This document shows, in pieces, positions 23,562 to 28,729 of a DNA stretch of 64,000 nucleotides (the first letter of the stretch is position 1; the number at the start of each line of letters is the position of its first letter). A program made the position numbers and the translations under genes. A model generated the notes under the pieces. The model had not been told where the DNA came from, searched no databases, and worked only from the letters and a program-made list of their open reading frames with translations. The DNA lies in NCBI GenBank assembly GCA_018645325.1, contig JABGOU010000001.1, positions 124,001 to 188,000 on the forward strand, written 5' to 3'. Origin of the DNA: Desulfobacula sp. Its GTDB lineage: Bacteria; Desulfobacterota; Desulfobacteria; Desulfobacterales; Desulfobacteraceae.

Positions 23562-24107
23562 ATGAAAGGTATTGTTTTTTCAGAATTTATCGATATGATT
23601 GATGATAAATTCTCCATTGAGACAAGTGAACGCATAATCGATGAAGTAAAGCCGCCTTCCGGTGGCGCTTATACGACGGTGGGCACTTACGATGCCCAGG
23701 AAATGGTGGACATGGTGATAAAATTATCCGAAATCACTTCCATTTCCGTGTCTGATCTTTTGCAGACCTTTGGTCGCCATCTACTCATACGGTTCTCTGA
23801 AGTTTTCCCTGTTTTTTTTGAAGGGGTGACATCAGCCTTTGATTTTTTACCCATGGTGGAAAGTTATGTTCATCTGGAGGTTAAAAAGCTATACAGCGAT
23901 GCTGAATTGCCTTCCTTTGTTTGTGTGTCCCCAGATCCTGACAGGCTTGAAATGACTTACCGATCTGTCCGTAACCTTCCGGACCTGGCCGAAGGACTGA
24001 TCCTGGGCACGGCAGATTATTTTAATGAACGTGTCAAAATTAAACGGGAAAGTATACCGGAAGATCCTTTGGCTGAACTTTTCATCATCACTAAACTCCA
24101 GGATTAG
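23562..24107 (+). CDS. H-NOX heme gas-sensor protein
   Basis: 181 residues, standard length for a stand-alone bacterial H-NOX (heme NO/O2-binding) protein. It starts MKGIVFSEFIDMI; the proximal heme ligand is His104 in SYVHLEVKKLY, followed by LPSF; the heme-propionate motif Y-x-S-x-R is YRSVR in LEMTYRSVRNLPDL. It senses NO (and in some obligate anaerobes O2) and changes the activity of a partner kinase or cyclase. The next gene, 2 bp later, is a diguanylate cyclase and the third was a hybrid kinase, so both partner types are present. The start has GGAGGG 10 bp upstream. Confidence 0.93.
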   Translation: MKGIVFSEFIDMIDDKFSIETSERIIDEVKPPSGGAYTTVGTYDAQEMVDMVIKLSEITSISVSDLLQTFGRHLLIRFSEVFPVFFEGVTSAFDFLPMVESYVHLEVKKLYSDAELPSFVCVSPDPDRLEMTYRSVRNLPDLAEGLILGTADYFNERVKIKRESIPEDPLAELFIITKLQD

Positions 24108-24109
24108 GT

Positions 24110-24796
24110 ATGGGCAATGAAATCGAACTGTTAAAACGAAGACTCCAAAGAGAAAAAAATATAAGGCAACAAGCTGAGAAAATAGCTGAAGAAAAGAGCC
24201 GGGAGCTTTACGTTAAAGGCCTGGAACTGGAAAAAATTCTCAAAGCAGAGAGCCGGGCAAGAAAAAAAATCGAGATATTGTATCAGGAGGTCGAACGCCT
24301 TTCCCTAATTGATCCGCTCACAGAATTGTCCAACCGCCGAAGTTTCAGCACCGAAGCCACGTCCCTGTTCCAACTTGCAATCCGGCATCAAAAGAAACTG
24401 TCCTGCGCCATGCTGGATATTGATTTTTTCAAGAAAGTCAACGACAGCTATGGTCATGATATTGGAGATAATGTTCTGATTGTCTTGGCAAAGGCATGCC
24501 AAGAACAAATCCGCAAGACCGATTTACTGGCTCGCTTTGGCGGAGAGGAATTTTGCTTTATGTTCCCCGAAACCGACCTTAAAAATGCCGTTTTAGTGGT
24601 TGAAAAAATCAGGCACTCGATATCTGAACTGAAGTTTCATTCAGAGAAAAAAAATTTTTCTGTCACTGTCAGCATAGGCGTCTCAGAATTGCTGGATTCC
24701 AACGACAAGATGGAAAGTATGCTCAAACGCAGTGATGCTTCACTTTACAAGGCAAAAGAAACCGGTAGAAACCGTGTTGTTGCCTGGGAGGTTTGA
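24110..24796 (+). CDS. diguanylate cyclase partnered with H-NOX
   Basis: 228 residues. A basic/acidic coiled coil (about 1-65, ELLKRRLQREKNIRQQAEK) leads into a GGDEF domain with the start block DPLTELSNRRSF, metal site LDIDFFKKVND and active site RFGGEEF. No I-site RxxD is obvious five residues before GGEEF (RKTDLLARFGGEEF has R-K-T-D, which does fit RxxD). It makes cyclic di-GMP. The start is 2 bp after the H-NOX stop, so the two are translationally coupled and gas binding likely controls c-di-GMP. Confidence 0.93.
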   Translation: MGNEIELLKRRLQREKNIRQQAEKIAEEKSRELYVKGLELEKILKAESRARKKIEILYQEVERLSLIDPLTELSNRRSFSTEATSLFQLAIRHQKKLSCAMLDIDFFKKVNDSYGHDIGDNVLIVLAKACQEQIRKTDLLARFGGEEFCFMFPETDLKNAVLVVEKIRHSISELKFHSEKKNFSVTVSIGVSELLDSNDKMESMLKRSDASLYKAKETGRNRVVAWEV

Positions 24797-25540
24797 AAAT
24801 GAGGTATATTCTAATATGCTGAAGCGTAAAAAAAAAAGAATATTAAGGCTGGTCGCTTTTTTTACGATTTGCTGGACAGCTGTTTTGGCAGGCTTTTATT
24901 CATGGTCCATCAAAAGTGAATTGGGCCAGACTTATGAACTTTCAAAATACCAGGCTCAAGCATTTTTTCAGGATATTGTTACTACTCGATACTGGAATGC
25001 AGAGCATGGCGGCGTTTATGTGCCTGTAACAGATACCACACAACCCAATCTATATTTAAAAGATCAACAACGCGATATCACCACAAAAAGCGGACTTAAA
25101 TTAACAAAAATTAATCCAGCCTATATGACCCGGCAAATTGGAGAGCTTGCAGAAAAAAGAAACCAGGTTTGGTTCCACATAACAAGCAATAATCCAATCC
25201 GCCCTAAAAATGCCCCGGATAAATGGGAATCTGATATATTAAAGTCTTTTGAATCTGGTTTAAAAGACTTTGCCGAATTTTCTGAATCAGAAGCCGGTAC
25301 AAAAGTATTTCGATATATGGCTCCGTTGTGGGTGGAACCGGCATGTTTGAAATGCCATTTGACACAAGGATATAAAAAAGGAGACTTAAGGGGTGGAATA
25401 AGTGTTACAATAGATGCAGAGTCTATTATCAGGACCCAGAAAAATCAAATCATCAAACTAACTGTTCTACATATTTCCATATGGGCTATTGGAGTTTTAA
25501 TTCTTCTATTTGGCGGCTACCTTCAAAACAAGGATATTAC

Positions 25541-25548
25541 TCATTTAA
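25541..25548. repeat. target-site duplication, left copy
   Basis: TCATTTAA, immediately before the left inverted repeat of the IS; the same 8 bp occur after the right end at 27174-27181. Both copies are exact. Confidence 0.88.
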
Positions 25549-27173
25549 CTGAAGTTTCCTAAAAAAAGTCATGCCGCTAACCGTAACAGAGCGGCTACAA
25601 AGGAATTATCAACTGGTTTGCCCGGTTGTGGGCAAAGTAATGCAAAATTATCATCCAGCGCGGCCCTCGTCAAGATTCTTCTGACATCGGAAAAAGCAAA
25701 ATGGTCGCGGCCATGAACCGCATGCCTTCGGCTTGGGGTATTGGCCAGCCTGCAAGCATAAATCCAGGTAAGTGATGTTGCCATCATGCAAAATTCCAGA
25801 TGGTTGGTCACTGCCACAGAATTTCTTGTCTGGGTTTCGGCACTGCCGATATCCCTTTTCAATTCTTTGAAACAGGCTTCGATCTTCCAGCGGGCGCCGT
25901 AGTATTCGATAACCTCGGTGACTGACAGCGTTAAATCGGTTGAAAACAAGGCAATCCAACGGCTCTTTCGGTAAATCCAAACTACTCGAACCATGCGTTT
26001 CAATGTTTTGAGCATGACAATTTGGTCGTAAGCAAGAACCGTACGGCATTGTCCATAGAGATTGACATTATAGTCTTGTGCCAGATCCCGATTCTCTCCA
26101 GCAAGAAATGAGGTGGTACCCAGTTTGTCCCCGTATATTTTTGGTCGGCCTGGTTTTCTTTTTGTGTCCATCTTCGGCTTAACAGCAAACAGATTGTTGT
26201 TGGAACGAAGCCTGGAAATCATGTGAATCTGTCTGCCCAGCTCCTTGTGTAAGGGCTCCCACATGCCGTTGTTGCCAAACCATGAATCTGCCACAACAAG
26301 AATATTTGCATCTGAAAATTCGGCTGCGACATCTGTGATCATGCTTACGGCCTGAGTATGTTTGCTCTGAAAGTTTATTGGCTTCCCGTTGTATAAGGGA
26401 GCACTCTTCCGGATCTCTTTTTTGAGGTGATAAAATCTATGGGCTAAAGGCAAACATGCCCACCGACCCTTGATCATTTTGAGCAATCCGATGGCGACAA
26501 CATTCTGTGCCCATGGATATTTTGACTGGTTTACTTTGGCGGCATGATCAAAAAATCTGGCACAGCCAAAAATCTTTTTTCCTGTTTTGGGATTGATGAA
26601 ATCGTCAAGTGCTATTAACAGCCTGCCATTGGTTCCGGGATCAGGTATCATATGCCATATCCTGGACCAAAGTCCTTTCCACGGTATTTTGGATGAAGCC
26701 ATGAAGGTATAATATCGTTTCTTTTTGATTCGGCCAAACCCGAAAAGAATTTCAAGTGCCCGGAGAAGATTTGAAGTTCTGGATGAGGTAAACGGAACTA
26801 TAATTGCCAGCAGAGTATAAGCAAACCATGATCCACGTTCTTTTCCTTTTCTGGACCAGGCAAATTCTTTCTTGAGTTCCTTGAGTAGTGAATGTAGTAT
26901 GTGCATGCGGGGCTCCTTTTATGGGCTGTTTTTTTTTGTCAATTACAACATACCATATTTGGGCCTCGCATTCAACAATAACTTATTGTTTTTATTAATA
27001 AAAAATGAAATATTGGCAAAAAATTGGATTCAAAAAATCCAATAAAATCAATAGGTTACAAAAATCTTTTTTTTTGTCTTAACCAACTGATTTTATGACG
27101 CATTTTTTATATAATTTTTGAGCGGCTGTGGCCAACTTCGGCTATATCGCTGATAAAAAACGGGAAACTTTAG
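25549..27173. mobile_element. complete IS4/IS701-like insertion sequence, 1,625 bp
   Basis: The ends are inverted repeats CTGAAGTTTCC (25549-25559) and, on the other strand, CTAAAGTTTCC (27163-27173), ten of eleven matching. They are flanked by an exact 8-bp direct repeat. The element holds one full transposase gene on the minus strand and about 267 bp of non-coding DNA at its right end, which contains a hairpin at 27023-27043 (ATTGGATT/AATCCAAT). Perfect duplications and an intact transposase indicate recent insertion. The transposase resembles DDE enzymes with the Y-R-E-K signature. Confidence 0.88.
25569..26906 (-). CDS. DDE transposase of the IS at 25549-27173
   Basis: 445 residues. The DDE residues are visible: first Asp in LLIALDDFINPKTGKKI, second in ILVVADSWFGNNG, and Glu in the Y-x2-R-x3-E-x6-K block YYGARWKIEACFKELK. 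A Cys-poor, basic N-terminus binds the ends. Start ATG 26906 follows AAAGGAG. It is intact, so the element may still move. Best placed in the IS4 superfamily (IS701-like), though the 8-bp duplication differs from the 4-bp one usual for IS701. Confidence 0.88.
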   Translation of the reverse strand: MHILHSLLKELKKEFAWSRKGKERGSWFAYTLLAIIVPFTSSRTSNLLRALEILFGFGRIKKKRYYTFMASSKIPWKGLWSRIWHMIPDPGTNGRLLIALDDFINPKTGKKIFGCARFFDHAAKVNQSKYPWAQNVVAIGLLKMIKGRWACLPLAHRFYHLKKEIRKSAPLYNGKPINFQSKHTQAVSMITDVAAEFSDANILVVADSWFGNNGMWEPLHKELGRQIHMISRLRSNNNLFAVKPKMDTKRKPGRPKIYGDKLGTTSFLAGENRDLAQDYNVNLYGQCRTVLAYDQIVMLKTLKRMVRVVWIYRKSRWIALFSTDLTLSVTEVIEYYGARWKIEACFKELKRDIGSAETQTRNSVAVTNHLEFCMMATSLTWIYACRLANTPSRRHAVHGRDHFAFSDVRRILTRAALDDNFALLCPQPGKPVDNSFVAALLRLAA

Positions 27174-27181
27174 TCATTTAA
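27174..27181. repeat. target-site duplication, right copy
   Basis: TCATTTAA, directly after the right inverted repeat, identical to 25541-25548. Confidence 0.88.
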
Positions 27182-28729
27182 TAAATATCGACAATCAGCT
27201 TAGACAGGAAAAGGAAAAAATTGCAGTCACCCTTCGTTCTATTGGCGAAGGTGTTATTACTGCGGATATTAAAGGCCGGGTTTCTTTGATTAATGCAATT
27301 GGAGAAAAACTGACGGGATGGAAACAGTCTGAGGTTTTTGGAACTCCAATGGAGAAAGTATTAAAAATTGTTGATGCCAAAAACAAAGAGGCCTATATTG
27401 ATGTGGTCAAGCTTGTTTTAGAATCCAGCTCAATAGTTAAAACCTTCAATGATAATCTTCTGATTTCTCGAAAGGGAAAAGTTTATAACGTTGCTGTCAT
27501 CAGCGCACCAATAAAAAATGAAAACGGTGTTATCATTGGTGTCGCAATTGTATTCAGGGATATTAGCAAAGAAAAACGGATTGAAAAAGAAATGGTTAAC
27601 ATGCAGAAAATGGAATCTATAGGCACCCTGACAGGAGGCATTGCCCATGATTTTAATAATATTCTGGGTATTATTCTTGGAAATACGGAGCTTGCTTTAG
27701 AGGATATCCCGGAATTCAACCGAGCTCATTTCAACCTTAAAGAAATCCAGACAGCAAGCCTGAGAGCAGCAAATATTGTAAGGCAGCTCCTCAGCTTCAC
27801 TCGCACAACAGACCAGAAACTACACCATATTCAAATTACTCCCGTTATTAAAGACGCACTTAAGTTTTTGCGATCCACAATCCCAACCTTCATAGATATT
27901 AAGCAGGATATTACCACCAAAGATGAAACGATTCTTGCAGACCCGACCCAGATCAACCAGATCATAATTAACCTGTGCATCAACGCTTTCCATGCAATGG
28001 AACAAATCGGTGGAGACATTATCGTCACTGTTGCAAAGGTGAATCTTAACGATAATTCAGTAAAAGACCTTCCCGGCTTGAAAAGCGGTGATCATGTCAA
28101 AATAATGATAAGTGATACAGGACCGGGAATAGATTCTAAAATCATCCATCGAATCTTTGACCCATATTTCACAACCAAAGAGGTGGGCAAAGGTTCCGGT
28201 ATGGGGTTGGCAGTGGTGCACGGCATTGTCAAAAGCCATAGCGGAGCAATTACCGTTGAAAGCAGTCCGGGCAAAGGAACTGAATTCAGCATATTTTTCC
28301 CTTTGAACAGGGAACAGCCAATTGTTAATATCCAGGAAGGCCGGGAGATTCCCAGGGGAAATGAAACTATATTATTTGTGGATGATGAAATATCCATTGT
28401 AAAAATGGTGCAAAGAATGTTTGAACGACTGGGATACAGAGTTGAAACCGCCACAACGCCTCAGAAAGCGCTGGAACGATTCAGGGAAAACCCCGATCAA
28501 TTTGATCTGGTCATCTCGGACATGACAATGCCGCAAATGACGGGTGTTCAACTATCTGAAAAATTGATGGACATTCGACCTGATATTCCAATCATAATCA
28601 GTACAGGCCACAGCGCCATTGTAGATGAAGAAAAAGCAAAAGAATTGGGATTGGCAGCCTATATAATGAAACCAATCAATATGCTGGAAACAGCACAGGT
28701 TATTCGAAAGATACTGGACAAAAACTAGC

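Follow-up and report, generated by a model that had tools for sequence, protein, structure and literature searches.

A putative heme-c sensor hybrid kinase gene split by an IS4-type element beside an H-NOX gene in Desulfobacula sp.

Analysis of a 64,000-nucleotide stretch of a Desulfobacula sp. genome (hereafter the window) revealed a hybrid sensor kinase gene that was most probably a single gene until an IS4-type, ISPepr1-like element split it (Table 1); we assign this reading a probability of about 0.93. The element separates the heme-c sensor, which is membrane-anchored, from the PAS domain, and its insertion duplicated 8 bp of the target. The knockout of a gene by a transposon is an ordinary, routine event, and the locus is of moderate interest.

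Table 1. Features of the interrupted kinase gene and its neighbours, in window coordinates.
Feature	Position	Strand	Evidence
H-NOX (HNOB) protein, 181 aa, full-length frame	23562-24107	+	PF07700 E 3.1e-38; YxSxR motif
Diguanylate cyclase, 228 aa, open full-length frame	24110-24796	+	PF00990 E 3.7e-45; GGEEF
Interrupted hybrid sensor histidine kinase gene	24816-28728	+	two half-frames plus insert
Kinase N half: Tll0287/DUF3365 heme-c sensor with CLKCH	24816-25562	+	PF11845 E 3.6e-25
Target-site duplication, left copy TCATTTAA	25541-25548	.	exact 8-bp match
Insertion sequence, 1,625 bp, IS4-type, best fit ISPepr1 subgroup	25549-27173	-	ends, length, target-site duplication
DDE transposase, 445 aa, intact frame	25569-26906	-	DDE_Tnp_1 match; IS701_3 match
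Target-site duplication, right copy TCATTTAA	27174-27181	.	exact 8-bp match
Kinase C half: PAS-HisKA-HATPase_c-REC, 515 aa	27181-28728	+	Pfam domains, open frame

Insertion site, reading frame and domains

The sequence-only reading had proposed an insertion sequence (IS) with near-copy ends, flanked by an exact duplication. This was confirmed: the left end of the element is CTGAAGTTTCC and the opposite end, read inward, is CTAAAGTTTCC, with 1 mismatch in 11 positions, and the target-site duplication (TSD) is an exact 8-bp match. Identity of two 8-mers at a spacing of 1,633 bases was found at 1 of 62,359 window positions, the TSD site itself. An alternative placement, in which the TSD is 6 bp long and each end of the element is longer by one base, was rejected: related elements start with CTGAAG and have TSDs of 7-9 bp. 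The two TSD copies lie in equal codon phase in the N-half and C-half frames, which places the insert inside one former frame of 759 codons (733 + 1,544 bases), with 244 whole codons to the left of the insert. The insert coordinates and the figure of 759 residues given earlier were correct to the base.

Both half-frames are free of internal stops. The insertion looks recent, because the TSD, the transposase and the half-genes are intact and without decay; the earlier view that a recent IS had cut one gene was thus upheld by the exact TSD, the intact transposase, the equal codon phase and the open halves. That the gene can be restored in frame is also correct, yet any TSD-flanked insertion into an open frame has the same property.

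The domain content agrees with the proposed parting of a sensor half from a kinase half, with Tll0287 to the left of the element and PAS, HisKA, HATPase and REC to its right. The N half scored 89.5 bits against PF11845 (cut-off 24.1). Its only cysteines are residues 19, 177 and 180, of which the last two belong to the CLKCH motif and residue 19 sits in the N-terminal hydrophobic stretch. A search of solved structures with the N half gave no useful match (two dehydratase chains, E about 0.06). The host genome encodes a second Tll0287 protein (G000:C72:914-1597) that is 40% identical and lies in an open frame of 360 aa. Judged by its motifs, the C half is a hybrid histidine kinase: the HisKA histidine and the HATPase N and G boxes were recognized (HDFNN at residue 156, NLCINA at 264, DTGPG at 312, GSGMGL at 338), as were the aspartate and lysine of the receiver domain (DMTMP at 447, MKP at 496).

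If the halves had instead been two separate genes from the start, with the element landing in the gap between them, the shared codon phase would be expected by chance in 1 of 3 cases, which counts against such an origin. Ahead of the element, the N half lacks a native stop; according to the ORF list its frame ends inside the element, which codes for the last four residues. The C half likewise has no start near its 5' end, and its earliest ATG, GTG or TTG codon is a TTG at 27286, within the PAS domain.

Relatives of the two halves

In the fetched loci, 37 ORFs were matched by both halves, some of them the same gene in overlapping loci. Eleven ORFs, picked among the higher-scoring of the 37, were studied in detail; distinct ORFs with weaker C-half matches, mostly of 20-31% identity, were left out of this set. 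The N-half match preceded the C-half match in all eleven picked ORFs, and the C-half match reached residue 512 or beyond. Identities in the picked ORFs were 40-45% for the N half and 30-47% for the C half. In one of them (L134) the shared ORF carried only N-half residues 86-232, the first part being in another frame.

Architecturally, the best match to the rejoined kinase is a protein of 762 aa from a genome of the same family as the host (L154 in G072), in which Tll0287, PAS, HisKA, HATPase and REC domains were recognized from the sequence. Residue 227 of the 759 lies 144 positions from residue 371; the corresponding points in this protein are 135 apart. The postulated 759-residue Tll0287-PAS-HisKA-HATPase-REC ancestor therefore has counterparts among relatives in which a single frame encodes the two halves in this order, and the comparison supports one such former protein as the source of both halves.

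The closest N halves over the full domain (53-57% identical) belong to proteins of 326-355 aa that end in a cysteine-rich segment and have no kinase; the best non-self match over the full domain reached 57% identity. At the start of one contig, a fragment (L130) was 61% identical over N-half residues 64-217, in an open frame of 156 aa. As the closest relatives of the N half are not kinases, the ancestral protein was reconstructed from less similar kinases. These short relatives would speak for two originally separate genes, as would the statement in the accessible text of a 2026 preprint (PMC12889525) that nearly half of all heme-c Cache domains, to which the Tll0287 domains belong, stand alone. 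Full-length fusions are nevertheless known among the relatives, and the short proteins are evidence of a modular sensor, not of halves that began as separate genes. Together with the frame evidence above, this leaves an origin as two genes very unlikely.

No strain of the same species lacking the IS was found in the searched genomes. The genome scan returned 11 loci, none with an IS-free gene, although the scan may omit records very near the host genome.

In another genome, a case parallel to the window was observed: a Tll0287 sensor gene (L118, G133:C1:1034497-1037046) is interrupted by the gene of another DDE transposase, which lies on the opposite strand, and the second part of the sensor gene is fused to a diguanylate cyclase.

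The element and its copies

The transposase contains a complete YREK motif (Y-2-R-3-E-6-K at residue 336) and scored 364.9 bits against the NCBIfam model NF049999 (IS701_3; cut-off 170). Relatives with transposases 53-57% identical over the full length and with the same ends were found in four genomes (G082, G067, G078 and G079). Related elements were sampled at 20 loci, 17 of which had both consensus ends and 3 no such pair of ends. Nine of the 17 copies had a TSD of 8 bp, four one of 7 bp and three one of 9 bp, and one copy had none; related copies measure 1591-1595 bp, compared with 1,625 bp here. A search for the transposase on plasmids yielded 62 records, with the best place in each below 60% identity.

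In the accessible parts of a 2008 survey (PMC2266710), the ISPepr1 subgroup of IS4 is described by the YREK motif, TSDs of 7-8 bp, AT-rich targets, 5'-CT ends, a printed end consensus of YT-AA-YTT---A and a length of 1500-1600 bp. The element in the window shares the YREK motif, an 8-bp TSD, an AT-rich target and a 5'-CT end, and its left end, CTGAAGTTTCCTA, fits every printed position of the consensus. It differs in that the right end, although it agrees with YT-AA-YTT, carries G in place of A at position 13, in a length slightly above the printed range, and in that NCBIfam names its transposase IS701. For IS701 elements the same text gives a TSD of 4 bp and the YREK tyrosine in 4 of 27 members. 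IS701, taken in the 2008 sense, was set aside, as the TSD here is 8 bp instead of 4 and the tyrosine is present. By these sequence features the ISPepr1 subgroup of IS4 is the best fit, ahead of IS701; because the length range was printed for elements known in 2008, this placement falls short of proven membership. The name of NF049999 (IS701_3) may deserve review, given that the element and its relatives have TSDs of 7-9 bp and that the element has the YREK motif.

The host assembly comprises 4.39 Mb in 157 contigs, and the window lies on contig C1. At the end of contig C11 (L003, 4762-4838), 77 bases are identical to the left end of the element and follow the opening 102 codons of a gene for an AMP-binding enzyme. 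This piece was the one other match to the element found in the host genome, in a search that scored 40 of 56 initial candidates, so that further short pieces are possible. The assembly probably broke off at a second copy here, which makes past movement of the element within the host genome probable. An assembler k-mer as the source of the 77-base overlap is a guess; the other end of C11 matches contig C121 over 144 bases at 99% instead of over 77 exact bases.

We also considered that the insertion is a reversible switch, with precise excision between the 8-bp repeats reactivating the kinase in a fraction of the population. The exact, in-phase TSD means that precise loss would reopen the frame, which is true of any fresh insertion, and a minority form without the element could stay hidden in the assembly. 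However, there was no sign of regulated excision, and the N half is single-copy in the assembly apart from the 40% identical paralogue, so that the assembly holds no empty-site contig. Precise excision of cut-and-paste elements is, moreover, rare in well-studied cases, and such a switch is highly improbable. Equally slight is the chance of an assembly error in which two contigs were misjoined through the element, which the copy at the end of C11 makes a probable repeat for the assembler, since an exact 8-bp in-phase TSD and matching N and C halves of a known architecture are unexpected from a misjoin.

H-NOX neighbours and the possible loss of NO sensing

Histidine 104 of the H-NOX protein is presumably the heme histidine, and the protein has H-NOX-type relatives among PDB structures. 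In the cyclase, an RxxD site lies 5 residues ahead of GGEEF. H-NOX genes pair with downstream kinases or cyclases, and the order of H-NOX and then cyclase in the window, both in open frames, is the same as in two other genomes (G247 and G407); the difference lies in a heme-c kinase as third gene, seen in the window only and not at the 16 other loci compared. These came from a count of H-NOX carriers, which are rare, host included, of 5 of 86 genomes in the family, 15 of 389 in the order and 10 of 395 in the phylum, the order and phylum sets being samples of larger groups and the overlapping sets together holding 23 genomes, 22 besides the host. The surroundings of H-NOX were covered in 16 of the 22, namely 13 loci in which neighbouring ORFs of at least 140 aa were considered and three (G407, G458 and G369) with a threshold of at least 100 aa; G567, G573, G604, G665, G684 and G773 were left out. 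A Tll0287 gene stood beside H-NOX at 0 of the 16 other loci, several of which are on short contigs.

The interrupted gene had been described as the third gene of an H-NOX operon. Strand and spacing fit this description, as the kinase starts on the same + strand after a gap of 19 bp behind the cyclase, whereas conservation of the neighbourhood does not; with no such neighbour at the other loci, the kinase gene is a putative member of the operon. Scans for promoter-like and terminator-like sites gave totals at chance level (17 versus 16.5 and 7 versus 5.5 expected from shuffled sequence, within error). In this chance-level scan no terminator-like site was found on the + strand in 23562-25541, and the start of the kinase gene coincides in part with a promoter-like site (24793-24820); a genuine promoter there would argue against a pure H-NOX operon. 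A search of a limited literature collection returned no paper that describes H-NOX next to a DUF3365 kinase gene or an IS inserted into a kinase of that kind.

On its own, the N half would yield at most a membrane-anchored heme-c sensor ending in the four residues encoded by the element and lacking kinase output. Little or no product would be expected of the C half, because it has no natural start. No promoter-like site was seen on the + strand in 26833-27370, again in a scan with totals at chance level; with no start before the TTG inside the PAS domain either, kinase output is probably lost, as far as the sequence allows a prediction. An internal start or a promoter in the element could still yield some of the kinase half.

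In the accessible text of the preprint that describes Tll0287 domains as heme-c Cache domains (PMC12889525), one tested protein of the signalling type without an axial cysteine released NO slowly, like H-NOX, and a tested stand-alone protein looks redox-related. The gene in the window resembles the kinases with an sCache_heme (DUF3365/Tll0287) domain described there in its N-terminal Tll0287 domain with CXXCH and in the PAS and kinase modules across the element, and differs from them in that the fusion is broken by the IS and adjoins an H-NOX gene. Its sensor domain likewise has no cysteine beyond CXXCH, as in the NO-binding protein. The sensor may therefore be of the NO-binding type, the only cysteines of the N half being those of CXXCH and residue 19. 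As NO binding is reported for this type, the insertion may, by analogy, take away an NO-sensing arm in the periplasm. Should sensors with a heme-c Cache domain and attached signalling domains indeed sense NO, the periplasmic NO input would be lost and the cytoplasmic one left uninterrupted. The locus offers a clean, naturally occurring mutant in a heme-c sensor kinase beside H-NOX, and a pair of strains with and without the element could reveal what a periplasmic sensor of the NO type contributes beyond a cytoplasmic one.

All three of the closest H-NOX relatives detected were broken, each by its own deletions or stops. They are remnants of H-NOX/cyclase pairs (L109 in G353, L108 in G047 and L053 in G081) whose DNA pieces are 66-82% identical to the pair in the window, and they occur in two genomes of other families and in one of another genus in the same family. 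The closest H-NOX pieces showed 67-82% identity per piece, and in G081 47.6% over a longer stretch. In G353, residues 1-51 of H-NOX are joined to residues 167-227 of the cyclase; the G047 remnant has two deletions, and that of G081 is disrupted by stops and gaps. The G353 remnant leads into what looks like the terminal part of a kinase ATPase domain, and the G047 remnant less clearly does the same, so that, going by these sequences, a kinase may have followed the cyclase in both genomes as well. Broken remnants in three genomes suggest that these bacteria readily lose the NO module. A wider reading is speculative and on balance unlikely: the locus would have been a two-compartment NO module, and H-NOX modules of this type would have been broken repeatedly in the order, here through an IS within the kinase gene and in the three genomes through stops or deletions affecting H-NOX and cyclase. 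If it were true, a cytoplasmic H-NOX protein with its cyclase and a periplasmic heme-c hybrid kinase sensing NO would have been encoded in one operon.

At two loci (L179 in G407 and L108 in G047), the H-NOX/cyclase pair or its remnant was found beside or near a CheB/CheR-PAS-like fusion gene of about 1,013 aa.
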